Source: Deltaproteobacteria bacterium (GTDB lineage: Bacteria; Myxococcota_A; UBA796; SXON01). Taken from it: DNA of 64,000 nucleotides. This document shows positions 43,825-60,487 of this stretch, piece after piece. Below the pieces are notes generated by a model. That model was not told the origin of the DNA. It saw nothing but the letters and a program-made list of their open reading frames with translations, and made no database searches. The stretch's first letter is position 1. Every line of letters starts with the position of its first letter. The position numbers and the translations under genes were made by a program. The stretch is from the NCBI GenBank assembly GCA_947445035.1, contig CANFCK010000003.1, positions 124,001 through 188,000 of the forward strand. Direction: 5' to 3'.

Positions 43825-45267
43825 ATGTTGTGGCTTCTCGCGGCGTGCGTTGGGAGCGGATCGACGCCCGACGACGCGGCGCTGCCGATCACCGGGCTGG
43901 CGCTGACCATCGATGCCGTGCTTCCGACGGTCGTTCACGCAGCCTGGGATGTCGGCCCCACGGGCGAGACATGGCTCGAATACGGCGAAAACCCAGAGGA
44001 CCTACGCCGACGAACGGCTCCGGCCCTTGGGACGACCGCCACGGCCGCAGCGCTCGCCGAGGGCCGGAATTGGTACTTCCGTGCCGCCGCAACCGACGCC
44101 GACGGCGCCCGCTGGCAGTCCGACTCGGTGTCCATCGGCATCGCGAACGCTCCGGCCGCGCTGCCCCGGTTCACCGTCAGCGACGTGTCCGACGCGGATG
44201 TAGACCCTGACGCACTGGTGTTCACGTCCTTGCTCCAGGAAGGAACCAGCTGGGTCGTCGGGCTCGACCGCCAGGGCGACTACGTTTGGTGGTGGCAGTC
44301 CGACGGGAACATCGAGGTCGACTCCGTGCACGCCGCCGCCGACGGCCAGGGGCTGATCTTCACCCACTTTCGCCAGGTCGAACGCCCCTACGCCGGAGTC
44401 GTCAGCGTCCGGTTCGACGGATCGGCATGGGCGACCACCTGGGCGGCCGACGGCCACCACGACGCGGTGCAACTCCCCGGCGGCGAGATCGCCTACATCG
44501 CCGCGCAGCGCGCGGACGCCGTCCCACTGGAGGACGGAACCACGGCGGACCTCGCCAGTGACCGGCTGCAGGTCGTCGCCCAAGGTGCGACGAGCGCCGA
44601 CAGTCCTGAAACCGTGTTCAGCTTTCTCGACGACTACGCACACCAACCCTGGCGGGTCTGCTCCCATTTTGACGACGAGACCCCAGGCGGCGGTCTGAAC
44701 TACACCCACGCCAACTCGGTCATGGTCGATCCCGACCGCGACAGCCTGCTCATTCAATCGAAGAACATCGACGCGCTGATCGCCGTGGACCGCGAGTCGG
44801 GAGCCATCCTGTGGCAGGCCGGCGGGCGATACGGCGACGTGACCGACGTGGACGGCGACGTCATCCCCGATGGCGAGGACACATGGATGGTGGAGGGACC
44901 GAACCGGACGTGGTGGAGTCACGGACACATGTCCCACTTCTGGGGAGACGGCTTCGCGATGTTCGACAACGGCTACCACCATCCGGATCAGGTGTCGCGC
45001 GCGGTGGCCTATGCTCTCGATCAGGACGCGCGGACCCTCGAAAAGGTGTGGGAGTTCCGCTCCGAGACCGACAGCTTCAATCCCCTGCTTGGCGACGTAC
45101 GCCGGCTCAGCAGCGGCAACTACTTGGTTTCTTGGACGATCCAGGGCATGATCACGGAGGTCACGGCGGACATGCGCGTGGTCTGGCGGGCCTCGGCCTC
45201 ACTCGGCGCCGCAACCGGACGCTTGGTCTACGTGACGGACGTCTACGGCCGAACACCCCCCCAATAA
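43825..45267 (+). CDS. Arylsulfotransferase (ASST)-like lipoprotein
   Basis: A 480-residue protein with a very short lipoprotein signal (MLWLLAAC, Cys at 8). Residues about 20-110 look like a fibronectin-III-type domain; about 115-480 form a beta-propeller like PF05935 aryl-sulfate sulfotransferases. Propeller His residues occur in WAADGHHDAVQLPGGE, YTHANSVMVDP and WSHGHMSHFWGDGF, where the family has its catalytic and substrate His. It probably acts at the cell surface or periplasm; sulfotransfer itself is unproven. AGGGAGG just before ATG 43825 supports the start. Confidence 0.8.
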   Translation: MLWLLAACVGSGSTPDDAALPITGLALTIDAVLPTVVHAAWDVGPTGETWLEYGENPEDLRRRTAPALGTTATAAALAEGRNWYFRAAATDADGARWQSDSVSIGIANAPAALPRFTVSDVSDADVDPDALVFTSLLQEGTSWVVGLDRQGDYVWWWQSDGNIEVDSVHAAADGQGLIFTHFRQVERPYAGVVSVRFDGSAWATTWAADGHHDAVQLPGGEIAYIAAQRADAVPLEDGTTADLASDRLQVVAQGATSADSPETVFSFLDDYAHQPWRVCSHFDDETPGGGLNYTHANSVMVDPDRDSLLIQSKNIDALIAVDRESGAILWQAGGRYGDVTDVDGDVIPDGEDTWMVEGPNRTWWSHGHMSHFWGDGFAMFDNGYHHPDQVSRAVAYALDQDARTLEKVWEFRSETDSFNPLLGDVRRLSSGNYLVSWTIQGMITEVTADMRVVWRASASLGAATGRLVYVTDVYGRTPPQ

Positions 45268-45276
45268 CCACCGCCC

Positions 45277-46404
45277 CTACGCCAGATACGTCCACACCCC
45301 GACGCTCAGCCCGCCGTTCTTGAACTGGACCACCCGCTCCACGCGCTCGTCCACCTTCAGCGCCATGCGACGATCGGGGGCGAGGAACACCACGCGCCAG
45401 CTGCCGAAGCGCTCCCGGAGGGAGCGACCGAAGGTGGCGTACACCTCATCGACCGTGACGCCGAGGCGCTCGCCGTACGGAGGGTTGGTCACGATGGTGC
45501 CGACCACCGCTGGCGGCTGGATCTCGGCCACATCGAGCAGACGGAAGGGCACGACCACCCCGGCACGCCGGGCATTCGCCACCGATGTCGCGACCGCCTG
45601 CGCTTGGTGGTCGCTCCCGAAGACCATCTGAACCGCGGTTCCCTTCGGCGGCGGCCGCGTTGGGGCAGCGGAAGGTGGCGGCCGCCCCCCGGAGCGAGGC
45701 TTCCCGCCCACCGGCTTCCCCTTGCCCCACTCGTCGCAAGCGAATCCGCCGCGCCCCTGGAACGGAGGCCTCCCGGCAGCCAGCAGCGCCCCCTCGATCG
45801 GGATGGTCCCAGCGCCGCAAAAGGGGTCATAGAGCGCATCGGTGCCGTCCCATTCGGCGAGGGCGAGCATGCACGCCGCGAGGTTCTCGCGAATGGGCGC
45901 GCGGCCGGCCTCGGTGCGCCAGCCACGTTTGTGAAGCAGGTCCCCGCCCGCGTCCAACGAAACGGTGACCTGGTCCTCCACGATCCGCACCTGCAGCACT
46001 TGGACATGACGGGGGCGCACGCCACGGTCGGGCACGAACGCGCCCTTCCGAGCGTCCCGGATCATCGCAGTGAGCGCGCGCGAGACGGTGTCCTTGAAGC
46101 GGAGTGCGCTGGCCCGAGAGGTGATCTCGATCTTCAGCTCGGCCTGCGGCAGCAGGAACTCCTTCCAGGGCAGGCTGCGGATGAGCACGCCGAGGGCGTC
46201 GCTGCTACGAGCGGTGCCGCTGCCGAGTTCGTAGAGCAGTTGCGACGGCGTTCGCATGGCGCGGGTGAGCATCGCGACGCGGGCGGCATCGGCAGAGAAA
46301 CGAACACCCCCTGGAACGACGTCCCCTTCGATGCCGAAGCCGGCGAGCTCGGCGGCGACGACCTCCTCAAGGCCCGGATGGATGACCGCGAAGCCGTGTC
46401 CCAT
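45277..46404 (-). CDS. THUMP-domain RNA methyltransferase (RlmL N-terminal type)
   Basis: A 375-residue SAM-dependent methyltransferase of the COG0116 group, related to the 23S rRNA m2G methyltransferase RlmL and YpsC/Trm14. The THUMP RNA-binding domain occupies about 50-160, the catalytic domain 165-375 with LYDPFCGAGTIPIEGALLAA and the IVTNPPYGER motif. A Pro/Gly-rich insert (RSGGRPPPSAAPTRPPPKG) lies between the two motifs. I choose ATG 46404, which overlaps the zinc-ribbon stop (TGATG). It is the last gene of the murA-dnaG-rpoD run. Confidence 0.92.
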   Translation of the reverse strand: MGHGFAVIHPGLEEVVAAELAGFGIEGDVVPGGVRFSADAARVAMLTRAMRTPSQLLYELGSGTARSSDALGVLIRSLPWKEFLLPQAELKIEITSRASALRFKDTVSRALTAMIRDARKGAFVPDRGVRPRHVQVLQVRIVEDQVTVSLDAGGDLLHKRGWRTEAGRAPIRENLAACMLALAEWDGTDALYDPFCGAGTIPIEGALLAAGRPPFQGRGGFACDEWGKGKPVGGKPRSGGRPPPSAAPTRPPPKGTAVQMVFGSDHQAQAVATSVANARRAGVVVPFRLLDVAEIQPPAVVGTIVTNPPYGERLGVTVDEVYATFGRSLRERFGSWRVVFLAPDRRMALKVDERVERVVQFKNGGLSVGVWTYLA

Positions 46405-47102
46405 CAGGGCAGGAGCCATCCGGCACAACCCGGGCAGGTGTGAACCGCGCGAGCCAGGGTGGTCTCAACGATTCGTTGTCCGGGAATCCGGGTCTGGCAG
46501 GTCTGGCACATCTGCTCGTGCGTGTTGACCAGCGCCGGCCGTTTCCGCTGGCGCTGGTACGCGTAAGCCGACTGGTACTCGGCGGGAACGTCATCGGCGG
46601 CGTCAGGGCGGCTTTCCAGAAGCTCGGTCAGCTCCGCCCGAACGGGACGATCGCGGGTGGCAAGCGCCGTGCGTGCTACGACAAGCGCACGCTTTCCGGA
46701 CTCGAGTTCCCGTTGTGCGCTGGCGCGGGCCTCCTCGAGGGCCTCGACCGCCTCCATCAACTCCAACGCGCCGGTTTCCAGCCGATCCACGATCTCCAGA
46801 ACCTGGGCCAGCTGCTTTACCGCTGCGGCGTAGTCCGGCGCGGTACCAGTATCGATCATCTTGCCGGTCCGGTCCCGCTTGTCCACGTAATCGGCCAGTT
46901 CCCGGTCGTTCTTCCGCGTTCGCTGGGTCGCGTCGTCGCGCTGTACCGCAATCGCCGAAAGCTGCGCCTCGACCCCCTTCACGGCGGCGTCGGCGGCGCG
47001 CACGGCGTTGGCGAGGGCCTCGTGCTCGGCACGGAGGAGGTCGCACTGGTGATCGATCTGCCAAAGATTCGAGATGAGGACGAGATCAGGATGCAATTCC
47101 AC
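46404..47102 (-). CDS. Coiled-coil C4 zinc-ribbon protein (DUF164-type)
   Basis: A 232-residue protein with a long coiled coil (about 15-175) and a C-terminal zinc ribbon with two Cys pairs, MCQTCQTRIP and HTCPGCAGWLLP. This layout fits the DUF164/CT398 family, which is near RNA metabolism and sigma factor genes in several bacteria and is reported to bind RNA polymerase sigma factors in Chlamydia; here the role is inferred. GTG 47102 is only 9 bases after the tRNA gene, so after tRNA processing the mRNA would be nearly leaderless. Confidence 0.85.
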   Translation of the reverse strand: MELHPDLVLISNLWQIDHQCDLLRAEHEALANAVRAADAAVKGVEAQLSAIAVQRDDATQRTRKNDRELADYVDKRDRTGKMIDTGTAPDYAAAVKQLAQVLEIVDRLETGALELMEAVEALEEARASAQRELESGKRALVVARTALATRDRPVRAELTELLESRPDAADDVPAEYQSAYAYQRQRKRPALVNTHEQMCQTCQTRIPGQRIVETTLARAVHTCPGCAGWLLP

Positions 47103-47189: not shown

Positions 47190-48914
47190 TCAGCCGTCCA
47201 TGAATGCGCGGAGGCGCTTACTGCGGCTGTGATGCCGCAACTTCCGCAGCGCCTTCGCCTCTATCTGGCGGATGCGTTCGCGGGTGACGTCGAAGTCCTG
47301 GCCGACCTCTTCGAGCGTGTGGTCCGAGCGTTCCCCGATGCCGAAGCGCATCCGGAGCACCCGTTCTTCCCGCGGCGTCAGCGTGGCGAGCACTTTTCGC
47401 GCTTGTTCCACCAGCGCGCTGTTGGTGACGTTCTCCCCCGGGGAGGGCACCAACTTATCCTCGATGAAATCGCCGAGATGGGAGTCCTCCTCCTCACCGA
47501 TCGGGGTTTCCAGAGAAATGGGCTCTTTGGCGATCTTGAGTATCTTCCGGACCTTGTCGGCCGGCATGTCCATCTTTTCGGCCACTTCTTCGGGTGTGGG
47601 CTCGCGTTCGAGCTCCTGGACCAGGTACCGCTGGGTCCGGATGAGCTTGTTGATCGTCTCGATCATGTGCACGGGGATGCGGATCGTCCGCGCCTGGTCT
47701 GCGATGGCACGCGTGATCGCTTGGCGAATCCACCACGTGGCATACGTCGAGAACTTGTAGCCGCGCTGGTATTCGAACTTCTCGACCGCCTTCATCAGCC
47801 CGATGTTGCCCTCCTGGATGAGGTCCAAGAACTGCAGGCCGCGGTTGGTGTACTTCTTGGCGATGCTGACCACGAGGCGAAGGTTGGCCTCGATCAGCTC
47901 GTTCTTGGCCACCTCGGCCAGGTGTTCGCCACGCTTGAGCCGCTGGGCGATGACCCGCAGCTCGTCGGCATCGACGAGCAGGTCTTCTTCGATCTTGCGG
48001 ATCTTGCGCAGCTCTCGGCGCACACGACTGTCGAACTCCGCCCACTGCGCCTCGGTAATACCGCTATTCTCGACCAGTTCGCTTCCGCCGCGTTCGGGGG
48101 CGCGGCGCACACGACGGATGCTTCGCCGAAGTTCGCGGACGGGGGTATTCGCCTCCCGCGCCACAACCTCAATCTCCTTTTCGCAGGCCGCGACGCTGGC
48201 CCAGGCCGCGTGGATCTCCTTGGCCAGATCGTTGAGCACCACGCGCTCGAGCTCCAACCCGTCCATGATCTCGAGAATCTGGAACTCAATCGCGGTGACT
48301 TGCGCGGCAGGGGGCAGCGCAACCGGCTCTGCGCGCGGACGATCGTTTTCTTTGAGGAGCGCCCGTCGGCGCTCCTGAAGCTCCCGCAGTTCGTTGACTA
48401 CCACATCCAGGGTGCGCCCAGATTTGGTCTTGACCCGCCGCAGCTTCTTCCCGGCGCGGGTGGCCTTTTCGATGCGCTCGTCCTCGTCGGCGAGCAGCCC
48501 AACCGCGATGCGGACACCCAAAGGCGAGCCGATCGTATTTTTGCGGATGGCCAGCTCTCCTTCCTCGATGCGCTGCGCGATCTCAATCTCACCATCGCGA
48601 GACAACAGCGCTACAGAACCCATCTTCCGCAGATACATCCTTACTGGATCGTTGCTACGCCCCGATGGGCTGGTCTCGTTGACCTTCCGTTCTTCAGGTT
48701 GGACGCCGCGGCGTTCTTGCTCCGCACGCCGCTTGGCTTGGTGCACGACCTCAATGTCGAGGTCTGAGAACATGATGTTGATCTCATCGAGGTTCTCATT
48801 GGAGATCAGGTGCACGGGCAAGAGCGTGTTCACCTCGTCCTGGGCAACGAATCCGCGTTCCTTACCCATGGCGATGAGCGCCTGAACCTCCCGCATCTCT
48901 TTGTCTTTGAGCAT
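47190..48914 (-). CDS. rpoD: RNA polymerase primary sigma factor RpoD
   Basis: A 574-residue housekeeping sigma-70. Region 1.1 is at the N terminus ([21 protein letters not shown]), region 1.2 near 88 ([11 protein letters not shown]), a non-conserved insert at about 150-300, region 2 with [20 protein letters not shown] and [15 protein letters not shown], region 3 with [20 protein letters not shown], and region 4 with [20 protein letters not shown]. The ATG at 48914 overlaps the dnaG stop (TGATG); TTG 48917 is also possible. Location downstream of dnaG is the macromolecular synthesis arrangement. Confidence 0.97.
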
Positions 48915-50704
48915 CAATCCACGACTCCCGCCCTGCGGTTGACCGACTGTTTCAGCCCTGCTTGCTGCGCATACAACACGGATAGCTCACGTACCAATGA
49001 TCCATAACTTGACTTGTCGCCAGTTGTCTCGCAACGGTGAATCTCGCGGTTGATCGTGAGTATCCGCGCGTCTACCGACCGCAGCTGTAGTCGCGCGAGG
49101 ATGGAGCGAGCCGCCGGAAGTGATGCTTCTAACTTGTAAAGATCTGGGTTTGCCGCCGCAGCCGCCAGGACGCGCGCCAGATCGGGCGCGTCGACTTCCG
49201 CCCAGGCGAGGACATCCGCGAGGGGATGGAGACTCAACAATCGAGCGATTGCGCCCAAAACGTCCGAACGCTCGGAAACCACGCTGGGATCCACCTCCGC
49301 GAGGGCGGGGGCAACGCGATCTGGGTATTGCACCACCAGCCAAAGCAGATGGGCCAGGTCCTTGTCCGGAGCCCAACGGCTCGGCGTGAGCGTTTGAACA
49401 CTGCTTTCCGGTGGACGCCCCACTTCTCGAATCAGCTCTTCCTCAGCGATCCCCAGCCACCCGGCCGCACGCCGAATGGTCACGTCGCGAACGGTGCCGA
49501 CGAGCTTCCGCAGGGTAGGCGCCAACGCCGCGACAGCACGCCCCCTGCCCTCCGAGCTGCTGCCATGTTTGTCGAGAGTGCGGCGAATGACCAACTCAAG
49601 CAGCGGCTCCGTGCGCTCCAACCGCTCCTCGAAGGCCGGGGCGCCGAACTTCTGCACGAACTCGTCGGGGTCCTTGGCGCCGGGGAGGTCCAGACGTCGG
49701 GCCTCGATGCCTGCGGCGAGAAAGAGGTCGAGCGCACGAACCGCGGCATTGATCCCCGCCTCATCGGTGTCAAAGAGCGCCACGACACGCGTGGTCAGGC
49801 GGCGCACGATCTCCAGGTGCTCCACGGTCAACGACGTACCGCAGGGCGCGACGGCTTCCTCGAACCCGGCCTGCCACAGCGACACCGCGTCGAAGTAGCC
49901 CTCGACCACCAGCAGTCGGTCCTTCCGCTGCACCGCGCTCCTCGCATACGACAAGCCGTAGAGTACCCGCGACTTTTCGTAGATTTCCGTTCCCGGCGAG
50001 TTGAGGTACTTGGGAGAGTCCTTCGGCGCGCCCGGTAAAACTCGGCCGCCAAATGCGATGGGCCGCCCTCGCTCGTCATGAATCGGAAAGAGCAGGCGCC
50101 CTCGGAAGACGTCGTAGGTCGTGCCACGAGCCTCGTGCTTCTTCACCAGCCCGCAGCGCAGCAACAATTCGCTGTCGAAACCCTCCCGCGTCAGGTGTGT
50201 TTCCAGGTTGTTCCATCCTTCTGGGGCGAAGCCAAGTCGGTACTTCTTGGCGGTGTCGAGGCTGATGCCCCGATCCGCCAAATAGGCCCTTCCCGGCGCT
50301 CCGTCCTTGCCCACCAGCAGCGTCGCCTCGTACCAGCGACAAGCGGCCTCGGCGGTCTCGTGGAGGTCCTTCCGCCTGGAAATCCTGGCCTCTTCCTGCG
50401 CACTCAGTGCCCGTTCCTCGATGGTCACCCCAACCTGGGCGGCGAGCTCCTTGACCGCGTCCATGAAGCCTACCCCCCGCGTCTTCTGCAAGAACGTGAA
50501 CACGTCCCCGCCCGCCCCGCAGCCGAAGCAATGGTAGATCTGTTTGGAGGGGACGACGTTGAAGCTGCCGGTCTTCTCGTTGTGGAAGGGGCATAATCCG
50601 ACGTGGCTGGTCCCGCGACGCCGCAGGGTCACCGTCTGCCCGATGACCTGCACGATGTCGGTGCGCGCCCGCACTTCGTCGACCACATGCCTCGGAATCG
50701 ACAT
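48914..50704 (-). CDS. dnaG: DNA primase DnaG
   Basis: A 596-residue primase that makes RNA primers at the replication fork. The N-terminal CHC2 zinc finger shows [13 protein letters not shown] and [11 protein letters not shown] (about 38-65). The TOPRIM catalytic domain includes [20 protein letters not shown] and [11 protein letters not shown] (about 260-330). The C-terminal helicase-binding region follows from about 430. Length is typical. The stop shares bases with the rpoD start and the gene begins 30 bases after murA, so a single message is likely. Confidence 0.97.
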
Positions 50705-50734: not shown

Positions 50735-52027
50735 CTACGCGACCGCGGCCGGCGCGGCGAAGCGCGGACGCCCCTCCTGACCGCGTTCGACCCGGGCGCC
50801 CACCGCCGAAAGTTTCTCGACCAAGCGCTCGTAGCCCCGATCCAGGTGGTACAGCCGGAGGATCTCCGTGCGCCCCTCGGCGGCGAGGCCCGCGAGGACC
50901 AAGGAGGCTGAGGCCCGCAGGTCGGTCGCCATCACCGTCGCCCCCGAAAGGGTGGGCTGACCGGTGATCGTCGCCGTTCGCCCCTCAATTTGAATCTGTG
51001 CGCCGAGCCGGACCAGCTCGGCCGCGTGCATGAACCGGTTTTCGAAGATGGTCTCGGTGACGCGACTGGTGCCCTTGGCGAGCGACAAAAGCGCCATCAA
51101 CTGGGCCTGCATGTCCGTCGGGAAACCGGGGTGTGGCGCTGTCTCAATGTCGACGGCGCGGACGCGGCCGTCGGCCCCAGCGCTGACCCAATCCGGACCC
51201 ACTTCCACCGCGGCGCCCGCTGCCCGCAAGACGTCGATCACCGGGGCCAGATCGGCCGGACGCACGTCTTCGCAGCGCACCTTCCCGCGCGAGATGACAC
51301 CGGCCACGAGGTAGGTGCCCGCCTCGATCCGATCGGGGAGCACCGCGTGCGCCACCGCTGACGCCCGCAGCGATGAGACGCCGTGCACGACGATCCGCGA
51401 GGTGCCCGCGCCTTCGATGCGCGCCCCACACCCGACCAGGAAGCGAGCGAGGTCCTCCACTTCGGGCTCTGCCGCGGCGTTGTCGAGCACGGTCGTGCCC
51501 TCGGCGAGCACCGCCGCCATGAGCACGTTTTCAGTGCCGGTGACGGTTACGACGTCGAAGGCGAATTCCGCCCCGCGCAGACGATCGACGCGCCCGTGGA
51601 CGTAGCCCCCATCGAGCTCGAAGCGACAACCGAGCGCCTCCAGCCCCTTGAGGTGCTGATCGATCGGACGGCTGCCGATGGCGCACCCCCCTGGCAACGA
51701 GACGTGGGCCTCGCCGCAGCGGGCCAAGAGCGGACCGAGCGCCAAAACGCTGGCGCGCATCTTCCGGACCAGGTCATACGGCGCCTCGCAGAACGCGACC
51801 CGCGAGGTGTCGACACGCACGGTCTCGCCGAGGAGAGACGGGCAGCCGATGCGGCCCAGCAGTGAGAGCATCGAGGAGGTGTCGACCAACTCGGGCACGT
51901 TTCGCAGCCGGTGTTCACCCGGCGCAACCACGGTTGCGATGAGGATCGGGAGCGAGGCGTTTTTAGCGCCAGAGATGCGCACGGCGCCCGCGAGGGGGCG
52001 GCCGCCGTCAAGTAGCAGGGTGTCCAT
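50735..52027 (-). CDS. murA: UDP-N-acetylglucosamine 1-carboxyvinyltransferase MurA
   Basis: MurA catalyses the first committed step of peptidoglycan synthesis, adding phosphoenolpyruvate to UDP-GlcNAc in the cytoplasm. The 430-residue product shows the substrate-site ISGAKNASLPIL near residue 18, the catalytic loop LPGGCAIGSRPIDQHL with the Cys that fosfomycin attacks (about residue 115), and PHPGFPTDMQAQLMAL. Start ATG 52027 (MDTLLLDGG) matches the family; the upstream in-frame part runs through the G tract. It heads the murA-dnaG-rpoD transcription unit, an uncommon position for murA. Confidence 0.97.
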   Translation of the reverse strand: MDTLLLDGGRPLAGAVRISGAKNASLPILIATVVAPGEHRLRNVPELVDTSSMLSLLGRIGCPSLLGETVRVDTSRVAFCEAPYDLVRKMRASVLALGPLLARCGEAHVSLPGGCAIGSRPIDQHLKGLEALGCRFELDGGYVHGRVDRLRGAEFAFDVVTVTGTENVLMAAVLAEGTTVLDNAAAEPEVEDLARFLVGCGARIEGAGTSRIVVHGVSSLRASAVAHAVLPDRIEAGTYLVAGVISRGKVRCEDVRPADLAPVIDVLRAAGAAVEVGPDWVSAGADGRVRAVDIETAPHPGFPTDMQAQLMALLSLAKGTSRVTETIFENRFMHAAELVRLGAQIQIEGRTATITGQPTLSGATVMATDLRASASLVLAGLAAEGRTEILRLYHLDRGYERLVEKLSAVGARVERGQEGRPRFAAPAAVA

Positions 52028-52050
52028 GGTGGGTCCGAAGGCGGGGGGCC

Positions 52051-52062
52051 GGGGGGGGGGGG
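52051..52062 (+). repeat. Homopolymer G tract (12 G; 12 C on the murA strand)
   Basis: Twelve consecutive G residues in the 89-bp gap between murA and the divergent 2,228-residue gene. On the minus strand this is a C12 run located 24-35 bases upstream of the murA start codon, in the presumed 5' leader. Runs this long slip during replication in many bacteria. A sequencing or assembly length error is also possible here. Confidence 0.85.
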
Positions 52063-52071
52063 CGGGACGCG

Positions 52072-52098
52072 AGTATACGCGCCACCGCGGACTGTAAA
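52072..52098 (-). promoter_or_regulatory. Candidate promoter for the murA operon
   Basis: On the minus strand TTTACA (52098-52093) and TATACT (52077-52072) resemble -35 and -10 boxes, separated by 15 bases, slightly short. Transcription would start just before the C12 tract. On the plus strand TGTAAA in the same place could serve as a -10 for the large divergent gene. Match quality is moderate. Confidence 0.4.
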
Positions 52099-52116
52099 GC
52101 AACCGTCTTCGCCCAG

Positions 52117-55100
52117 ATGAAAAAGCAAGCGCCGTGCCAGCCTGAAAGCGATAAATCGGGGACCGTGCCCGTACTCGCCTTCAGGCCTCGGTACCGGGGG
52201 GCCGACCTCCGCGTCGTCGATCTCTCGACTGTAAGCCTCAAGGGCCAGGATCTGGCCGGGTGCGATCTGCGCGGCGTAGACTTGAGCCGTCGCGATCTCT
52301 CCGGCGCCGACCTCAGCGACGCCCGGCTCGACGGCGCGACGCTCGTCGACGCCGAGTTCCGGGACACCGTTCTCAACGGAACGAACCTGACCGATGCGGA
52401 CGCCCGCGGAGCGCGCTTCGACCGAAGCCGCGGCGCGGACCTGATCGCGACGGCGCTCGACGCCCGCGGGGCCTCCTTTCGTGGCGTCGAGTGGCCGCGA
52501 TGCCGGCTGTCCTCGGCTCGGCTCGGCGGCGCTCGTTTCGGTGGGGCGAGACTTGACGGCAGCGACCTCGAGGGCGCGTCGCTCGTGGGCAGCGAACTTC
52601 GGCGGGCGGTCCTCGACGACGCCGCACTCGAAGGCGCAGACCTGAGCCAGATCGCCGGGCTTGGCCTCGCCCTGGCAGGGGCCCACGGGCGCTTTCGACT
52701 TGTCGGCGCCGATCTGCGGGGGAGTGACCTGCGGGGCATCGCCCTCTTGGAGTTCGAGCTCGATGACGCCCGACTCGACGGGGCGACGGTAGACCGACAG
52801 CTCTCCCGACAATCTCCGGGGCGGCTCCGCGCCCTGGGTTGGTCACCGCCGATGCTCGGCCGCGCGCTTTCCCCCCTCCGCGAGGGCGGTCGATTCCCAA
52901 CGCACGTCGCGGCGTGGCTCGACGGTTGGCGAGCGGCACGTCCGAGCGAAGCGGACGCCCGCCCCGACGACGAAGAAGCCCGCGAGCCGGACGACGACGT
53001 CATCGAAGACGCCTTCGCTGGGGACACCTTCCGTCGTGAGCGAGAGATCGCCCGACGGGCCTGGGCTCGCGAAGCGTCGGCGCGTTCGCGCGCGGCGGTC
53101 CTGCGCCCCCCCGACCGCGTCGTGCCCAGGCTGCCAATCCCCGCCGCGCCCGTGCCCGCTGCCACGCAGCGTCTGGGCACCCCGACGCTTGCCCCCAGCG
53201 AGTTCCTCGACGCCTTCCGAGACGGGGCTGCGGCGCGCGATGCAGTCGTCGCTGACGCTGCGCTCACGCGTGAGCTCCGGGCCCGAGCGGACGTCCGCCG
53301 GCGAGCGGCAGCGGCCATTCGGGAGACGGCGAACGCTGCCCTCCGCCGGGAAAGTGAGCGGCTCCGGGCCGCCGAGGAGGCCGCGGCTCTGGCGTGGCAC
53401 CAACGGCAAGAGGCGCTGCGACTCGCGGAGGCGGAGGCCCTCCAAACGGCGGCCGCTCGCGGCGCGGCCGAGGCCGATCGCGCCGCCTTGGCGCGATCGT
53501 CGCAGGTGGCGGCATCGCGTGCCGCCGAGGTGAAGGGTGCCGCGGCATCGCGTGCCGCCGAGGTGGAGCGGGATTTTGGCGACAGCGCGGGCGCAAGGGA
53601 CGCGGAGCCTCCCGCCCCGGTCGTGGCCCCGGCGCCGCAGGCGATCGATCCGCCGCCGGCTCAGGAGCGCCGCGCGCGCGCCATCGCCCAGCTCATCCGC
53701 TCCGCGTCTGATCAAACGCAGGGACGGCGCAAGCTCCTCTACCAGCTAGATGCGGCAGAGGCCCAGGAGCGCGCGCGCCGAGACGAGCAGGACCTCGCGG
53801 CGGCAAGCCCAGGCCTCTCGCCCACCCGCAGGAGTGCCGTCGGCCCGGGGGCCGTGCTCGCCGCGGCGAGACGCGTGCTCAGCGCCGCTGGTCGACAGGT
53901 AGGCAACTTCGTAGAGCAGGCAGCGGGCGCTAGCATGCGCGTCGGCCGGGGCGCGCCGACGGCAGCCGCCGACTTCGCCGGCGCCGCGACCCGCACGCTG
54001 GCTGAATTCAGGCGCCTTTTCGACACCCTGGCGGCGCCCGTCGTTCCCGCCGAACCCGGAGGGACGACCGAGGACGAACGCATTCTCAGGATCCTGCGCG
54101 GGACCGAGGACGAACGCATTCTCAGGATCCTGCGCGGGGGGGAGTCGGCCTCCGCCGCGCCGACGGGGCCCGCTTGGGGCACCGAGAGCCGCGCGCGGCT
54201 TCGCGCGTTGGCCCGCCGCGCGCAGGGGCGCGCGCGCAACGCCTCGTTCCCAGGCAGGGTCTATTTCGGGACGATCGCAGGGCTCTCGGCCATCGCCGGG
54301 CGCATCGCCCAGCTCCCCACCTGGACGTGGTCGACGGCGGCACGCGCCGGGAACGCCGCGCTCGCCCTCACGGTGACGGTCGCGACAGGCGCCATCGCGC
54401 TAGCCATCGCTGTGGGCCACGGCGTGCGGATCGGGGCGCCGAGGCTCGCCGCAGCGTCCGATGTCTGGCTTTGGACCCCGCTGAACCACGCCATTCGGCG
54501 GGCGGCGCCGGCTCTCCGTGACGTCCTTGACCGGGCGGAGGTGGGCGAGGCGGAGCCGGAGCCAACGGGCGAGCCCGACACCGTCGCGCAAAAGCGCCGC
54601 GTGGAGTCGCAACGCCGTCGCGCGGCAGAGATGGCCCGACTCGACGAGCTCCGGACGACAACGGCGCAGCGCGCTGACGAGCTGATTCGTACCGCGAGAG
54701 CGGTGGCGCTGGCCGCCCGTGCAGGGCTGGGTCCCGCCGTGGACGCCGCGCTGGAGCCCCTCGCCCTGATCGTGGCACCGATGGTGAGCCGGTTCCAGAG
54801 CCTTCGCTCTCTCACCACCGGCGAAAACCTTCGGAGCGCGTCCCTGTGGCTCTGGGGAGCGGACGAGGACGCACGGGTGCTGCGGGCGACCGTAGAGGAC
54901 GGCCTGGAGTTCGCGAGACGGTCGGAAGAGCGCACCCGGACCCACAGCTACTTGGGCGGCGCGCGCTACGTGGGCGTCTTGGGCGCCGTGCGGGCGTCGG
55001 CGAGAGAACGTGAGGCCGGCGGCGCGGTTTTTCTTCCCCACGTCATGCGCCGCGAAGCCGCATTCGTGACCCGCGGCCGGCGAGACGCCACCGACGCCAT

Positions 55101-58100
55101 CGCCGTGGCCAGACTCCTCCGCGCCGAGGAGGCCCAAGCTTCGGTGGAGCTGCTCGTCGCCGACCGCCAACGCGGCGAGGTCTCGGCGCGACGGGCCCTG
55201 GCCGACGAGGTCCGCCGCGCACAGCTGGCGCGTGAGACCGAGCGGCGCCGGCGCCGGGAGGAGGCCGAGCTCGACCGGCTACGCACGGACGCGGAGGCCC
55301 TTGAGGATCGCGCCGAGCGCATCGTGTCACAGGAGCGATCGGATACCGCCGATGGTGTCGATACAGCGCTGCTCCGGGAGCTACGCGCCCGCCTGGAAGA
55401 GCGCCAGCGGGCCGTCCGGGAGCAGGCCGAGCGGGTCGCCGCGGCGCGCGACGCGCAAAGCGCCTCCGAGGCCGAAGCGGCGGCTCAGCGGCGGCGCCGC
55501 GTGCTGGCGGCGCTGAGCGTGGGCGTGGGCCGCTTCCGCCGCCGACTGACCCCGGAGCCGATCGACGCCCGGCCGGGAGCCGATCTGTCCGGGCAGTCCT
55601 TCGACGAGCGCGATCTCGCCGGTGTCGATCTGCGCGCCGCGCAACTCCGACGCTCGACGTTCGTCGGCGCCGACCTCCGGCGCGCGGACCTGCGGGACGC
55701 GGACCTGACCGAGTCCGATTTCACGGGCGCCAGGCTCGAGGGCGCGCGCTTCGACGGCGCCTGCTTGGATGGGGCCGTGCTCGACCAGATCCTCGTCACC
55801 GGGGCGACCTTTGCCAATGTGCGCGCCGCCGGCGCGCAACTGGGCGCCGTTCGCGGGCTGTCCGCGGAGGGTAGGCAGGCGCTGGTCGGCGGCGGCGCCC
55901 AGACCCCGACCGCGGCCGAGTCTGGCGGCGGTCGTCTCGCCCTCGGCGCGGTGCTCCTCACCATCGCCGTCGGCGGTGGGTTCTACGCCTACGGCCAGTT
56001 CGGCCCTCGCGCCCTGGACGCCGCGGCGCTCGAACAGGCAGCCGCCGAAGCAAGGCAGTCCGGGCGCTCCGGTGACGCCGCTGACGCCTTCCGCCGGCTC
56101 TCCGAGCAAGCCGTCGACCTCCAGAGTCGCGTGGACTACCTGCTCGAAGGCGCGGTCTCGGCGGAGGAGGCCAACGACCGCGCGCGTACCCTCTCGCTGC
56201 TCGAGGAAGCGATCGAGGCCGCCGGCGACACTCAGGACTTCCCCCGCGTGCTGCTTGCGCGGGCAGATGTCTGGCAACGGCTCGGCCTGGACAGTCGCGC
56301 GGCAACGGAGTTCGAGGCGCTTCTGGCGCGCAGGGACATCTCGCCCGACCAGGCTGCGGCCTCGGTCGTGGGACTCCACAACGCGCTGCGCGATGGCGGT
56401 CAGACGGCGGGACGATTCCAGGAGAAACGCCTTTTCGCCCTGGCCACCGACCCCGAACGTTGCGCCTTCGCCCTTGCCCTCGCCGACGCCTGGGCCGCCG
56501 CCGACCTGCCGCTTCCGGCGAAGGCGGCGCTCGAAGCCGCCCTCGCCTCCATTGAGAGCCCACCGGAGCGGGCGGAGGTGCAGCTACGGCTGGCACGAGC
56601 CACTGCGGAGGGCGGCGAACTGGACGCGGGCCTGGCCCTGTACGCGGCGCTGGACGGCTCCACCCGCGAAGAGGACGCACGCCTGGGCGCGGCAGAGCTG
56701 CTGGAGCGGGCCGGACGTGGCGAAGAAGCCAGGGCGATGCTCACTCCGCTCTTGAGCGCCTCGGCGGCGGATGTCCGGGCGCGGGCTCACCTTGCCCTGG
56801 CGACGACCGCCGAGCGCGCCGGGCAGAACGAGGTCGCCATGGACCATGTGCGCGAGGCGCTTGCCATCGGCGGCGTACCGCCCGCGATCTCGGATGGCGC
56901 TCGCATCCTCCTCGCCCGGCTGGATCCCAGCGCCGTGGAGGACCTGGTGGCGGAGCACCCAGGCCTCGCGACCCAGCTGCTCTTGGGGCGGGCTCAGGCG
57001 CTGCGGGAAGCGGGGGAGCGCAGCGACGCTCGCGCGATCTGGGTCAAGGTGGCGGAGGACGCGAGTACGACGCCCGAAGCCCGCGTGGAGGCGACGCTGG
57101 CCATCGCCGAACTACAGGTCGACGACGGCGACATGGAAGGCGCGATCCGCCGCTACGACGCGCTTTTGGCCGGGGCGCTGGTCGACCGCGACACCCGAGT
57201 TCGCGTCAGCCTTGGCCGCAGCCAGGCCCTGCTCCGGTCCAACCGCGTCCAGGAGGCGGAAGCGGCCTACATCGCGCTATTGGCGGGGGCCTCCGCGGAG
57301 GTGGAGGCGCAATGTCGCCTGGGACTGGCCAACGCGAAGGAGCTGCGGGGTCAGGCCGCGGCGGCGGCTGAGCTGTACCAGATGGTCGGGCGCGGGCAGG
57401 GACCCTGGGCGCTGGAGGCGCTGCTGTCGCTGGGCCGGCTCCGCGAAACAGGCGGCGACCTGCCGAGCGCGATCGAGGCCTACCGCCTTGCCCGGGGCCG
57501 ACCTGGAGCCGAGGCCAGCCGCCGCACGGCTGCCGATCTCGCGTTGGCCCAGGCGCTCGACGCCAGCGGGGACGCGGCTGGCGCCGCCACCGTGTATGCG
57601 GCGCTCATCGAGGCCCCCGACACCGGCATCCGGGTGCAGGCCCGCATCGCAGTCGCCGAAGCCCGGCTCGCAGCGGATCCCGCGGCGGCGCGTGCGCTGC
57701 TCGACTCGGCGCTGGCGGAGGCGACTGCGGGCCCCGAGCAGAACGCAGCAAGAGCGCTCTGGGTGCGGGCATCGGTCGCCGTCGGCGATGCCGCAGGGGC
57801 GCGCAGCCGGCTGGACGCGTGGCTGGCAACCGATGGCGACCGCGGCTCCCGCGATGAACTGGTGGCTGCCTCCATCCGCGCGCTGCGCGCCGAGGGCGAA
57901 ATCGATGCGGCTGCGGAGGTTGCCACGCGGTGGGCCGACGTCGGCTTCGAAGCTGGCATGGAGGGGGCGCTGAGCTTGCGGGAGGCGGGGCGGACTGCGG
58001 AAGCGGTGCGGGTGCTCAAAGACCTGGAGCCAGAGGGCGTCGACGACCGCCGCTGGCGGGACGAGGTGTACGCCGAGCTGCTCGTCGAGGCCGACGATCT

Positions 58101-58803
58101 GGACGCTGCGGACGAGGTGTGGGCGCGCTTGCAGCGGTCCGATCCCGACGCGGCGTACCTGGGCCGCGCGCGGATTGCCCGTATGCGCGGCGAGCCTGAG
58201 CGCGCACTGACCCTGCTCGCCGACACGCGGGACGCCCGCGCCGCGGAGGAGCGCGGACTCGCCTACGAAGCGCTGGAGCGGTGGGACGAGGCGCTCTCGG
58301 CCTACGCGTCCATGGCGTCTTCCGCCGATGTCGAGCGACGCTCGGCGGCGCACGTCGGGCAGGCGCGGGTGTGGCTGGCGCGGGAGGACGCCCGGGCGGC
58401 GCTATCCGCCCTCGCGCAGCTCTCGGTCGTCGACCCTGGCTACACCCTGACGGTGGGTCAACTCAAGGGTGATGCGTTGGTGGCGCTCAAACGTTTCGAC
58501 GAGGCGCGTGACGTCTACGCCTCGCTCGACGGGGACGCAGAGTCGCGGACGGTCGGCGCCTTGGGGCTTGGCGAATGCGCCCTTGCCGCCGGAGACCCGC
58601 GCACTGCCGTCACCCGCTTCGGCGACGCGTTGCGCGAAACGAGCGACCGCTACTACCAGGCCGACGCCATCGCTGGCCTGGTCCGGGCGTTTCACGAAGC
58701 GGGTCGCGGCGAACAGGCGCTGGCGCAGTTCGAGACGCTCAAGGACGGCTACCCCGAGCGCCCCGACGCCATCGCCCGCGCCCAGGCCGCGCTCAACGAG
58801 TGA
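52117..58803 (+). CDS. Giant pentapeptide-repeat / coiled-coil / TPR membrane protein
   Basis: I do not recognise a family for this 2,228-residue whole. In order: pentapeptide repeats (about 25-228, A(D/R)L-type units such as ADLRVVDLSTVSLKGQDLAG); an acidic stretch (about 275-310); Ala/Arg/Glu coiled coil (about 378-560); a 12-residue duplicated unit TEDERILRILRG; a membrane helix (about 739-765); a second coiled coil (about 990-1130); a second pentapeptide block (about 1155-1250); a second membrane helix (about 1272-1297); and tandem TPR-like repeats to the end (about 1300-2228). No catalytic site is visible. It looks like a membrane-bound scaffold. Single gene, divergent from murA; its end overlaps the convergent radical SAM gene by 11 bases. 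Confidence 0.85.
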   Translation: MKKQAPCQPESDKSGTVPVLAFRPRYRGADLRVVDLSTVSLKGQDLAGCDLRGVDLSRRDLSGADLSDARLDGATLVDAEFRDTVLNGTNLTDADARGARFDRSRGADLIATALDARGASFRGVEWPRCRLSSARLGGARFGGARLDGSDLEGASLVGSELRRAVLDDAALEGADLSQIAGLGLALAGAHGRFRLVGADLRGSDLRGIALLEFELDDARLDGATVDRQLSRQSPGRLRALGWSPPMLGRALSPLREGGRFPTHVAAWLDGWRAARPSEADARPDDEEAREPDDDVIEDAFAGDTFRREREIARRAWAREASARSRAAVLRPPDRVVPRLPIPAAPVPAATQRLGTPTLAPSEFLDAFRDGAAARDAVVADAALTRELRARADVRRRAAAAIRETANAALRRESERLRAAEEAAALAWHQRQEALRLAEAEALQTAAARGAAEADRAALARSSQVAASRAAEVKGAAASRAAEVERDFGDSAGARDAEPPAPVVAPAPQAIDPPPAQERRARAIAQLIRSASDQTQGRRKLLYQLDAAEAQERARRDEQDLAAASPGLSPTRRSAVGPGAVLAAARRVLSAAGRQVGNFVEQAAGASMRVGRGAPTAAADFAGAATRTLAEFRRLFDTLAAPVVPAEPGGTTEDERILRILRGTEDERILRILRGGESASAAPTGPAWGTESRARLRALARRAQGRARNASFPGRVYFGTIAGLSAIAGRIAQLPTWTWSTAARAGNAALALTVTVATGAIALAIAVGHGVRIGAPRLAAASDVWLWTPLNHAIRRAAPALRDVLDRAEVGEAEPEPTGEPDTVAQKRRVESQRRRAAEMARLDELRTTTAQRADELIRTARAVALAARAGLGPAVDAALEPLALIVAPMVSRFQSLRSLTTGENLRSASLWLWGADEDARVLRATVEDGLEFARRSEERTRTHSYLGGARYVGVLGAVRASAREREAGGAVFLPHVMRREAAFVTRGRRDATDAIAVARLLRAEEAQASVELLVADRQRGEVSARRALADEVRRAQLARETERRRRREEAELDRLRTDAEALEDRAERIVSQERSDTADGVDTALLRELRARLEERQRAVREQAERVAAARDAQSASEAEAAAQRRRRVLAALSVGVGRFRRRLTPEPIDARPGADLSGQSFDERDLAGVDLRAAQLRRSTFVGADLRRADLRDADLTESDFTGARLEGARFDGACLDGAVLDQILVTGATFANVRAAGAQLGAVRGLSAEGRQALVGGGAQTPTAAESGGGRLALGAVLLTIAVGGGFYAYGQFGPRALDAAALEQAAAEARQSGRSGDAADAFRRLSEQAVDLQSRVDYLLEGAVSAEEANDRARTLSLLEEAIEAAGDTQDFPRVLLARADVWQRLGLDSRAATEFEALLARRDISPDQAAASVVGLHNALRDGGQTAGRFQEKRLFALATDPERCAFALALADAWAAADLPLPAKAALEAALASIESPPERAEVQLRLARATAEGGELDAGLALYAALDGSTREEDARLGAAELLERAGRGEEARAMLTPLLSASAADVRARAHLALATTAERAGQNEVAMDHVREALAIGGVPPAISDGARILLARLDPSAVEDLVAEHPGLATQLLLGRAQALREAGERSDARAIWVKVAEDASTTPEARVEATLAIAELQVDDGDMEGAIRRYDALLAGALVDRDTRVRVSLGRSQALLRSNRVQEAEAAYIALLAGASAEVEAQCRLGLANAKELRGQAAAAAELYQMVGRGQGPWALEALLSLGRLRETGGDLPSAIEAYRLARGRPGAEASRRTAADLALAQALDASGDAAGAATVYAALIEAPDTGIRVQARIAVAEARLAADPAAARALLDSALAEATAGPEQNAARALWVRASVAVGDAAGARSRLDAWLATDGDRGSRDELVAASIRALRAEGEIDAAAEVATRWADVGFEAGMEGALSLREAGRTAEAVRVLKDLEPEGVDDRRWRDEVYAELLVEADDLDAADEVWARLQRSDPDAAYLGRARIARMRGEPERALTLLADTRDARAAEERGLAYEALERWDEALSAYASMASSADVERRSAAHVGQARVWLAREDARAALSALAQLSVVDPGYTLTVGQLKGDALVALKRFDEARDVYASLDGDAESRTVGALGLGECALAAGDPRTAVTRFGDALRETSDRYYQADAIAGLVRAFHEAGRGEQALAQFETLKDGYPERPDAIARAQAALNE
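54067..54138 (+). repeat. Tandem 36-bp duplication inside the giant gene
   Basis: Two identical 36-base units, 54067-54102 and 54103-54138, each encoding TEDERILRILRG. The identity at DNA level, including third positions, suggests a recent duplication. The frame is kept. Confidence 0.9.
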
Positions 58804-60487
58804 CGCGCGTCCACAGGGGGCCGAAGGGCTCTTTGAGCACGTCGCCAACGCGCTCGGCGAGGCGGATGTCCCGCCGGGACGCGGTGACGCGGCCTTCCCA
58901 GGAGATCGCCGGGCCATCGACCAAGGGCGGGGAGCCGAGTCGCACACCCAGCGCACGCGCCCGTGCTTCGGCGCGACCCGCGTGTGGACCGGCAAGTGCC
59001 GGCTCGGCCCAAAGCTCGGCATCAAGGGAGTATTCTGGAAGCAGAAGGCCGCTGGTGTGAAGCACGATGCGGTCGGTCCTGCCCCGCAGCGCCGACAGCA
59101 CGCCCGCGAGGTCGGGGTGCAAAAGCGGCTCGCCCCGCCATCGCAGGACCACCGTGCCGAACCGGAAACCAGCCGCCGCGGCGGCATCGAGGATGCGTGC
59201 CACCACCCCGGCGCCGAGGAACCCGCGACCAAAATCGACGTAGTGTTTGTCTCGCAGCTCGGCGAGACGCGCGGGGTCCTCGGCCACAGCCTCAAACGGC
59301 ACGGGCGACCGGGCAAAGAGGGTGCGAAGCGCGGGGCTCCGCGTGTCGTCCGGCACGTCTGAAAGCTCGAAAGCGACTGGCAAATCTATGGTACTCAGTC
59401 GTCGTTGCGTCACGATGGACGCGCGCGCGACCCCGGCCAACTCGCGCACCAGCGGCACCACGGCATCGCTGTCGCGGCGGAGGTAGCAGTTCTGGATGCA
59501 CGGCGTCGCGCAGCGCTTGACCACCTCACGTCGTTGTTTCAGCGTCGGGCTCGACCAGAGTTGGCGGAGCGTGGCCTCGCGCACCGAGCCATAGCGGCCG
59601 GCCAGGAAGTCCAGCTTCCCGTCGCACATGATGACGCTACCATCGGCGTTGACGTAAAGCTCCTTCCAGCCCGCCCAGCACGGCGCGTCCAGGGGCGACA
59701 GGCCTTCGCGGTAGTACCGCGGCACCAACCGCAGGTCCGCGGCGGCGTTGAGCACCAGGGGTTCGTCCTCGAGCGCCCGCACCACGCTTTCCAGCTCGGG
59801 CAGCGATCCCTCGTCGAACCACATGCCGCCCACAGTGTCGTCGTCCCGATCGCGGAACAGGTTGAGCACCTGCACGCCGTCGAAGCCGAGCGCACCCAGG
59901 CGCTGCACGAACGCCACGAAACCGTCGACATTTCGTCGGTTGAGGATGACGTTGGCACACACCTTCCGACGAGGATTTCCCTGGGTCTCATCGGCCTCGC
60001 GCAGCGCGCGGTAGCCGGCCATCGTCCGCCGCCAACTCCCCTCCCCTCGCACCGCATCGTGCGCCACTTCAGGCCCGTCGATGCTGATGTTGACGTGGAG
60101 CTTTTCCACCGGTATCTTGGCGATCGCCGCGGCACGCTCGGGCCGGATCAGCGTGCCGTTGGTGGTCAGCGTGGTGTGCATGTCGCGACGTGCTGCATGC
60201 GCAAGAATGACTTCGAGATCCGCGCGGATGAAGGGCTCGCCCCCGAGCGGGTTGAAGACCCCGACGCCCCAGTCCGCAGCTTGATCGATGAGATCCATCA
60301 CTTCGCGCGTCGTGAGCTCTGGGCTGTCGTAGCAGGTGGTGCACATCACGCAGGTGAGGTTGCAACGCAACGTCAGGTTCACGCTCAACCAGTCGGGCGG
60401 CGCGAGGCTCGTCGTCAGCGCGCGGGACGCCCACATGCGCAGGTCGCGGGTGATGGCGGGGACCGAGCGGAGCACTGCCGAGGGCAT
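58793..60487 (-). CDS. Radical SAM/SPASM protein with degenerate second barrel
   Basis: A 564-residue enzyme. The N-terminal radical SAM domain (about 30-260) has CNLTCVMC, NPLGGEPFIRADL and TLTTNGTLI. A SPASM-like Cys set follows (PCWAGWKELYV, VIMCDGKL, CATPCIQNC, about 275-370), expected to hold auxiliary clusters. The last 150 residues contain VVLRWRGEPLLHPDLAGVLS and IVLHTSGLLL, which look like the GEP and TNG parts of another radical SAM barrel, but no CxxxCxxC is present. Radical SAM/SPASM proteins modify peptides, sugars or enzymes; substrate unknown. GAGG lies 4 bases before ATG 60487. Confidence 0.85.
   Translation of the reverse strand: MPSAVLRSVPAITRDLRMWASRALTTSLAPPDWLSVNLTLRCNLTCVMCTTCYDSPELTTREVMDLIDQAADWGVGVFNPLGGEPFIRADLEVILAHAARRDMHTTLTTNGTLIRPERAAAIAKIPVEKLHVNISIDGPEVAHDAVRGEGSWRRTMAGYRALREADETQGNPRRKVCANVILNRRNVDGFVAFVQRLGALGFDGVQVLNLFRDRDDDTVGGMWFDEGSLPELESVVRALEDEPLVLNAAADLRLVPRYYREGLSPLDAPCWAGWKELYVNADGSVIMCDGKLDFLAGRYGSVREATLRQLWSSPTLKQRREVVKRCATPCIQNCYLRRDSDAVVPLVRELAGVARASIVTQRRLSTIDLPVAFELSDVPDDTRSPALRTLFARSPVPFEAVAEDPARLAELRDKHYVDFGRGFLGAGVVARILDAAAAAGFRFGTVVLRWRGEPLLHPDLAGVLSALRGRTDRIVLHTSGLLLPEYSLDAELWAEPALAGPHAGRAEARARALGVRLGSPPLVDGPAISWEGRVTASRRDIRLAERVGDVLKEPFGPLWTRVTR

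Follow-up and report, generated by a model that had tools for sequence, protein, structure and literature searches.

The window, the whole stretch of 64,000 nucleotides that was analysed, carries a long gene on its forward strand, whose product combines two blocks of pentapeptide repeats, long predicted helices, hydrophobic segments and a C-terminal TPR array, and which stands head to head with the murA gene of an rpoD-dnaG-murA cluster (Table 1). The genome that contains the window amounts to 5.27 Mb in 60 contigs. Translation of the frame gives 2,228 residues with zero internal stops. Codon-position GC keeps to this one frame and is steady over the full length of the gene, so that no frameshift is indicated, and a gene fusion was rejected as the origin of the open reading frame (ORF) on the same ground; nine close homologues (see below) are also single chains. 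The start of the ORF agrees with those of three relatives (P0003, P0004 and P0009), which begin shortly before the first pentapeptide block, while the database entry for the window protein itself (P0002) has a later start. The original prediction of a single chain with two pentapeptide blocks, hydrophobic segments and a TPR array, here of about 930 residues, has been borne out by the ORF, by matches to PF00805, by AF2 models and by homologues.

Table 1. Features of the putative scaffold gene and its neighbourhood (positions in the window; residues refer to the 2,228-aa protein)
Feature	Residues	Position	Strand	Basis
Whole gene (pentapeptide block 1, long helices, hydrophobic region, helical hairpin, pentapeptide block 2, TM, TPR array)	2,228 aa	52117..58803	+	ORF translation, homologues
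Pentapeptide block 1, predicted beta-helix	27-225	52195..52791	+	PF00805; AF2
Long single helix, candidate coiled coil 1	360-481	53194..53559	+	AF2
Hydrophobic region including the helix 747-767 (first helix of the original prediction); predicted two helices, possible re-entrant hairpin; not conserved	715-767	54259..54417	+	AF2 (low confidence), alignments
Helical hairpin, candidate coiled coil 2, directly before block 2	973-1143	55033..55545	+	AF2
Pentapeptide block 2, predicted beta-helix	1154-1246	55576..55854	+	PF00805; AF2
Conserved hydrophobic helix, predicted transmembrane	1274-1293	55936..55995	+	Hydropathy, alignment
TPR array, 53 helices (26-27 pairs) in the model	1302-2228	56020..58800	+	AF2, homologue profiles
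Intergenic space common to the scaffold gene and divergent murA, 89 bp		52028..52116		murA start
murA, UDP-N-acetylglucosamine 1-carboxyvinyltransferase, divergent neighbour		50735..52027	-	TIGR01072
dnaG primase, in the rpoD-dnaG-murA cluster		48914..50704	-	Synteny
rpoD-type sigma factor, in the rpoD-dnaG-murA cluster		47190..48917	-	Synteny

No model in Pfam or NCBIfam matches the whole chain, the individual matches never spanning it, and the literature searched, which covered few papers from subscription journals, gave no description of an architecture of pentapeptide repeats, transmembrane helix and TPR array, in agreement with the earlier claim that this domain order belongs to no described family. 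The separate parts are known; their combination and the linkage to murA appear undescribed in what could be searched. The 2,228-aa protein is a member of a conserved, uncharacterised family, whose characteristics are presented below.

Pentapeptide blocks, helical linker and TPR array

The pentapeptide repeats are recognized by PF00805 with 129.8 bits (cut-off 20.2) in 8 stretches. Both blocks are modelled by AF2 as beta-helices with a strand every five residues, mostly at high pLDDT: the means per ten residues in block 1 are 85-97 for residues 31-180 and 71-83 for residues 181-230. The fold search superimposed the predicted model of block 2 on 2f3l (rmsd 1.8 over 115). Both pentapeptide blocks are predicted to be quadrilateral beta-helices. 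A sequence search of the PDB with the protein matched pentapeptide proteins, to which the profile added generic helical-repeat proteins and DotG. The two candidate coiled coils are modelled with lower and uneven confidence. For the long single helix the AF2 means are 66-84 within residues 371-470 and about 51 or less at both ends, and for the hairpin, composed of helices 973-1075 and 1083-1143, they are 73-90 in residues 1021-1070 and 1081-1130 and about 60 or less at the ends and in the turn. Among the nine close relatives, sequence identity amounts to 24-60% in the linker with the first long helix (residues 251-700), 18-63% in the region of the first hydrophobic helix, 25-82% in residues 941-1150, 43-93% in block 2 and 41-93% in the thirds of the TPR array.

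The TPR signal is weak in the single sequence, where among the TPR-type Pfam models only PF25058 clears its cut-off and TPR_19 reaches 23.0 bits against a cut-off of 25. However, among the Pfam models TPR_19 matches 12/12 and TPR_16 11/12 of a set of C-terminal halves at E ≤ 0.001, and from residue 1302 onward the AF2 model of this piece (mean pLDDT 84.0) consists of paired antiparallel helices, as expected of repeats of about 34 residues. Resting on homologues and on a predicted model, the assignment of this part as a TPR array is firm.

Relatives and their distribution

A query with the full chain against 5.8 billion proteins returned 16 proteins at E ≤ 0.001, including the window's own. Nine close relatives (P0003-P0011) are 2,040-2,595 aa long and exhibit 36-80% overall identity, and five distant ones (P0012-P0015 and P0017) exhibit 27-28%. 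P0016 was rejected as a member of the family, as the match concerns only the pentapeptides of a carboxypeptidase-regulatory-like protein; alignments A1-A3 were made without P0016 and P0002. A query with the C-terminal half found 7 further proteins, and P0018-P0024 were used in part (some of them in alignment A4). The chain has homologues of full length in separate assemblies, none of which was found in a characterised family.

A profile made from 12 diverse C-terminal halves gave 173 matches, the best 120 of which were considered and 39 of which were inspected (P0025-P0063). Among the matches listed, the scores of members extend down to P0062 (257 bits, with pentapeptides) and are followed by P0063 with 157 bits, a generic TPR protein matched with 8% coverage. 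A script detected a pentapeptide run of at least eight repeats in 33 of the 39 inspected proteins; those without it are the generic P0063 and five members of 508-764 aa, which are probably pieces. Among the matches listed, a TPR-only ancestor or free-standing copy was rejected in view of these probable pieces and of the drop in score from 257 to 157 bits, with the exception of L052, a TM-TPR protein without pentapeptides, in which a hydrophobic helix (2.40) near the N-terminus is followed by the TPR half. The kinship of L052 is weak (E 9.2e-10), and its locus has no adjoining murA.

The assemblies that contain the named relatives are metagenomic and labelled as Deltaproteobacteria, Myxococcales or Myxococcota. 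Two further labels, Pseudomonadota (P0021) and Alphaproteobacteria (P0057), may be misassignments. In the genus, the C-terminal piece with block 2 was matched in 11/11 genomes (own included), and in the family, f1, the TM-TPR half was matched in 22/22 genomes, in 17 of them near full length, in 1 over two contigs and in 4 partially. At the level of the order, a match to the TPR half was found in 37/63 genomes, i.e. the 22 of f1 and 15/41 in other families, the matches outside f1 showing 27-35% identity and some of them being weak (best-match E up to 2.7e-5). In family f3 the TPR half was matched in 0/21 genomes at the limited sensitivity of this search; in it and in a wider one 13 or 11 candidates per genome were scored, and non-detection is not proof of absence. 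The wider search matched 71/71 genomes because its query contained a pentapeptide block, and the search with the TPR half (37/63) speaks better to the family. Outside the order, genome G063 (family f7) has a member, L079, with a frame of 1,420 aa, pentapeptides, a helix at residue 337 (hydropathy 2.04) and a TPR match.

The members have in common a last pentapeptide block, then a hydrophobic helix, then a TPR array of near-fixed length. In the window protein and its close relatives, and at those f1 loci with a script-placed helix, the part that follows the conserved helix comprises 934-960 residues; it comprises 1,018-1,038 residues in 31 of the 33 pentapeptide-bearing proteins from the profile search, the two exceptions being P0060, in which the script left the helix unplaced, and P0062, which is 867 aa long. 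Other lengths are 796 (L062), 1,044 (L049), 1,056 (L065) and about 1,065 residues (L079); L046, L063 and L064 are truncated or stop early, and for P0019 the script picked the wrong block. The part that precedes the helix varies about eightfold among 5'-intact frames, from about 336 residues in L079 and 528 in L048 up to 2,739 in L043.

Hydrophobic segments and membrane topology

The two helices that, according to the original prediction, might span the membrane are runs of 21 and 20 residues, respectively, without D, E, K, R, N, Q or H; the longest uncharged run in seven window proteins taken as soluble is at most 14. The second of them, which separates block 2 from the TPR array, is hydrophobic in 15/15 aligned sequences (19-residue maximum 1.19-2.27), with an uncharged run of 20-23 residues in the window protein and the nine close relatives and of 16-18 residues in the five distant ones. 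It is Gly/Ala-rich and has low AF2 confidence. At a hydropathy of at least 1.4 a conserved helix was counted in 43/49 and 28/33 proteins of two member sets, figures that are not specific because presumed-soluble controls reach 1.55 by the same 19-residue measure (murA 1.40, dnaG 1.52, rSAM 1.55).

The first helix is the more hydrophobic of the two in the window protein (2.27 vs 1.75), but its site is clearly hydrophobic only in P0001, P0003 and P0004, to which P0010 may be added with 1.57 in one of two alignments, and the remaining homologues have charged helices aligned there. Elsewhere upstream, P0006, P0007, P0009 and P0010 each possess a single hydrophobic stretch, which precedes the conserved helix by 398-467 residues, and L033 likewise has one upstream; at a threshold of 1.55 no upstream segment was detected in P0005, P0008 or the distant P0012-P0015 and P0017, and P0011 has only one, near residue 245. 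In the window protein a second uncharged stretch (715-728) precedes 747-767, AF2 predicts two helices here with low confidence, and in the relative L032 a pair of hydrophobic segments is separated by 42 residues. If 715-728 and 747-767 formed a re-entrant hairpin, both pentapeptide blocks would stay on one side of the membrane, and we infer that the region 715-767 is either such a hairpin or peripheral; the single upstream segment detected in P0007, P0009 and L033 at the threshold used counts against the hairpin.

The positive-inside rule gives the orientation no support: there is one K+R within 25 residues before the conserved helix and three after it in the window protein, the picture is mixed elsewhere, and the local charge balance does not settle the matter. 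Two other properties make an N-in orientation likely. No strongly hydrophobic N-terminus is seen in any pentapeptide-bearing member with an intact 5' side (maximum in the first 60 residues at most 1.45), and the TPR half, with a net charge of -4.5 to -10.2 per 100 residues vs -2.1 to +4.6 in the N-terminal part, is the more negative in 15/15 sequences. As far as sequence features can tell, both pentapeptide blocks are probably on one side, in the cytoplasm, and the TPR array on the other, in the periplasm.

The murA neighbourhood

The divergent neighbour scores 535.9 bits with TIGR01072 (murA; cut-off 392.7), and the match to the model begins with the Met at residue 26 of the frame, the last base of its codon being 52027. 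Its Pfam name, EPSP synthase, would suggest AroA, an identity that was rejected, as the NCBIfam AroA model gives 68.7 against a cut-off of 287.25 while MurA clears its own. We examined 35 places (the window, L009, L010, L030-L051, L053, L054, L062-L065 and L079-L082), 18 of which, L080-L082 among them, are cut at the 5' side of the gene; L030 and L079 were not counted, as their contigs extend only about 150 and 210 bases upstream of the gene frame. In all 15 loci of the order with upstream sequence, which represent four families and extend down to about 23% identity, murA is divergently adjacent: the window, L009, L010, L034, L038, L039 and L043 (f1 and near relatives), L062 and L063 (f2), L046, L064 and L065 (f5), and L047, L048 and L053 (f6). 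Eleven of the 15 loci, window included, were fetched by the gene itself and L062-L065 through murA, a mode of retrieval that favours the adjacency. In L064 the frame stops after about 817 aa, without a full TPR half. In pairwise comparisons of 12 loci, the identity of MurA correlates with that of the C-terminal half (Spearman 0.77, a value that 1 of 5,000 permutations attained), which fits joint vertical inheritance.

The linkage is not universal. A divergent murA neighbour with a pentapeptide run was found in 0/13 fetched murA regions of families f3, f4, f7 and f9, in whose genomes dnaG and rpoD are often still beside murA, and G063 is one of these 13 genomes, its one detected murA (38% identical) being on another contig than L079. 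Because the rpoD-dnaG-murA cluster exists in families without the scaffold gene beside murA, MurA does not need this gene as a neighbour, and the adjacency may be uninformative about function. Its position next to murA allows no more than a guess that the gene is regulated together with murA and hence takes part in growth of the cell wall. On the other side, a radical SAM/SPASM gene lies downstream at L009, L010, L030, L031, L033 and L034, all of the genus or near to it, and was not found in the other loci processed by the same neighbourhood script.

Alternative interpretations

The most serious competitor, though one we consider somewhat unlikely, is a cytoplasmic or peripheral scaffold, whose conserved helix would be buried or only attached to the membrane and whose TPR array and pentapeptide blocks would all be cytoplasmic. 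Pentapeptide and TPR solenoids are both common in cytoplasmic proteins; the moderate hydrophobicity of the helix, its Gly/Ala-rich composition, the short uncharged run in distant relatives and the low AF2 confidence would all suit a helix that does not cross the bilayer, and the charges near the helix do not argue for an exported C-terminal half. However, a hydrophobic helix has been kept in every row of the alignment despite divergence of the helix itself and of the preceding residues, the TPR half is consistently acidic relative to the N-terminal part, and L052 has a strong helix near the N-terminus, ahead of its TPRs. The arrangement favoured by the original prediction, with both hydrophobic helices spanning the membrane and block 1 and the TPR array opposite block 2, draws on the greater hydrophobicity of the first helix in the window protein and on the single upstream stretch in P0006, P0007, P0009, P0010 and L033. 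It now appears quite unlikely for the window protein and was rejected as a rule for the family, in which the first helix is absent or charged in many relatives: P0005, P0008 and all five distant relatives lack the upstream segment, P0011 has it only near residue 245, and since these proteins have a homologous block 2 and TPR array, the array would have to flip sides between relatives; besides, the stretch 715-728 and the two segments of L032 suggest a hairpin. A scaffold that spans the membrane is still the best reading, and of the earlier proposal it is the sidedness of the blocks and the TPR array that is not supported, as the first helix is not conserved and the second is.

Two other alternatives concern function. 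The pentapeptide blocks might be DNA-mimic modules of the Qnr/MfpA kind that bind gyrase and are held at the membrane, and as pentapeptide proteins MfpA and Qnr are indeed similar to them in sequence; the scores are far under the NCBIfam cut-offs (59.7 vs 360 for mfpA, 51.1 vs 240 for Qnr), other pentapeptide families score equal or higher (HetL, itself under its cut-off, 88.1 vs 260), and we regard such a function as highly improbable. It is also conceivable, at a low probability, that the gene merely happens to be positioned near murA and that its product has nothing to do with MurA or the cell wall, acting instead at the cell surface, in adhesion or in some other way. Within the order the adjacency is limited to f1, f2, f5 and f6, and the 13 murA regions without a pentapeptide neighbour, together with the G063 member away from murA, indicate that the scaffold gene is not needed for basic cell-wall synthesis; on the other hand, no secretion signal was seen for the N-terminal part and no adhesin domain is among the Pfam and NCBIfam matches.

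A putative membrane scaffold

With moderate confidence, we propose that the protein is a bitopic inner-membrane scaffold, with the pentapeptide blocks and candidate coiled coils in the cytoplasm, one spanning helix and a periplasmic TPR arm. A type II (N-in/C-out) membrane scaffold would be the simplest reading of its architecture. Block 2 would rigidly cap the membrane helix, which it immediately precedes, the TPR superhelix would offer a long binding surface across the membrane for periplasmic or envelope clients, and the variable helical part with block 1 would reach into the cytoplasm, where it may contact or cluster cytoplasmic partners. A link to wall growth is weakly suggested by the position of murA. 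More speculatively, and with a low probability, the TPR superhelix could act as a lineage-specific envelope ruler in the periplasm, which by its constant length would gauge or span the distance to the wall or outer membrane, with the pentapeptides as an inner-membrane clamp, a coiled-coil or rod stalk of varying length in the cytoplasm, and co-expression with MurA coupling precursor supply to envelope spacing or growth sites.

The family is of interest because a predicted membrane helix joins two solenoid folds that are each very common, and no named family covering the protein was found. If the proposed topology is true, the protein would be a ready-made physical connection of cytoplasm and periplasm in bacteria that are represented here mainly by metagenome assemblies, and models of spacing or of a ruler could be tested directly on the near-fixed length of the periplasmic part. 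The linkage to murA provides a first hypothesis on the pathway.

Comparison with known systems

Proteins of the Rfr fold, such as HetL, All3740, MfpA and Qnr, differ from the window protein, which has two blocks about 900 residues apart and a TM-TPR half. On the side of the TPR array, generic TPR superhelices are among the matches listed in the fold search, and the giant superhelices (the TPR domain of O-GlcNAc transferase, 1w3b; LGN; IFT-A; Ski chains) show a generic repeat match with 10-19% identity over the TPR part, a comparison that gave no evidence of common descent or function. The periplasmic scaffold of the Campylobacter jejuni flagellar motor appears at rank 27 (9hmf_K, Foldseek E 9.6e-9) with low TM-scores (0.18/0.24); its chains, we presume, are TPR-like and without pentapeptides. 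DotG/IcmE, a large envelope protein of the Dot/Icm type IV secretion system, matches the pentapeptide part of the profile with its residues 639-727 (E 3.7e-8). The repeats of DotG are periplasmic and its C-terminus is VirB10-like, whereas no VirB10-like match is among the Pfam matches of the window protein.

The closest parallel in layout is YfgM, an inner-membrane protein with TPRs and a type II (N-in/C-out) topology, with one N-terminal TM helix and four periplasmic TPR motifs, whose periplasmic TPR domain holds PpiD at the translocon via protein-protein contact (PMC9643414). With the YfgM model PF09976 (TPR_21) the window protein scores 20.2 bits, below the cut-off of 25.5, and we do not file it as YfgM; like other TPR models, PF09976 matches C-terminal halves at E ≤ 0.001, namely 8/12 of them (best 3.9e-14). 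YfgM has four TPRs and an N-terminal helix (PMC9643414), whereas the window protein has 26-27 modelled repeats and about 1,270 residues before the helix; what the two have in common is one TM helix, here predicted, followed by a TPR domain, and this is also the layout of L052.

Variation within the family

Two extreme members of the family, encoded in relatives' loci L043 and L065 (about 3,713 and 3,249 residues, respectively), have the same arrangement at the end as the rest of the family, the added length being located N-terminally to the last pentapeptide block. A member of 1,420 residues from a genome of another order (L079, family f7) comprises a single long pentapeptide block followed by a helix and the TPR part, and its gene does not adjoin the murA detected in that genome. 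The relative in L052, a locus within which murA was not found, exhibits a hydrophobic helix at the N-terminus and TPRs, and is devoid of pentapeptide repeats. In L064, a pentapeptide ORF adjoins murA, ends after about 817 residues and lacks the full TPR half; it may be degenerate, frameshifted, or a different form of the gene.

In 18 of the 32 fetched relatives' loci that carry the gene, a contig ends inside it or at its 5' side (L031-L033, L035-L037, L040-L042, L044, L045, L049-L051, L054 and L080-L082). The Ala/Arg-rich middle of the gene may break the assemblies and thereby hide full-length members from the databases.

Genes of the window and of relatives' loci
Feature	Position	Remark
Arylsulfotransferase-like gene	43825-45267	PF05935
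CT398-like coiled-coil hairpin gene	46404-47102	adjoins rpoD-dnaG-murA
Radical SAM/SPASM gene	58793-60487	convergent to TPR gene
Extreme member	L043:7673-18814	
Extreme member	L065:2690-12625	
Member from another order	L079:212-4471	
Relative with TPRs	L052:2088-5363	
Pentapeptide ORF	L064:8369-10828	

Genomic neighbourhood

The radical SAM/SPASM gene has an 11-base overlap with the 3' end of the TPR gene and, among the loci compared for neighbourhood, is retained downstream only in the nearest relatives. A CT398-like gene is also present near the same rpoD-dnaG-murA cluster in L009, L010, L047, L062, L064, L065, L068 and L074.

A pentapeptide protein outside the family

P0016, a pentapeptide-only match of 2,112 residues, carries a hydrophobic segment at the N-terminus, carboxypeptidase-regulatory-like domains and a long run of pentapeptide blocks; it is unusual, but unrelated to the family of the window protein.
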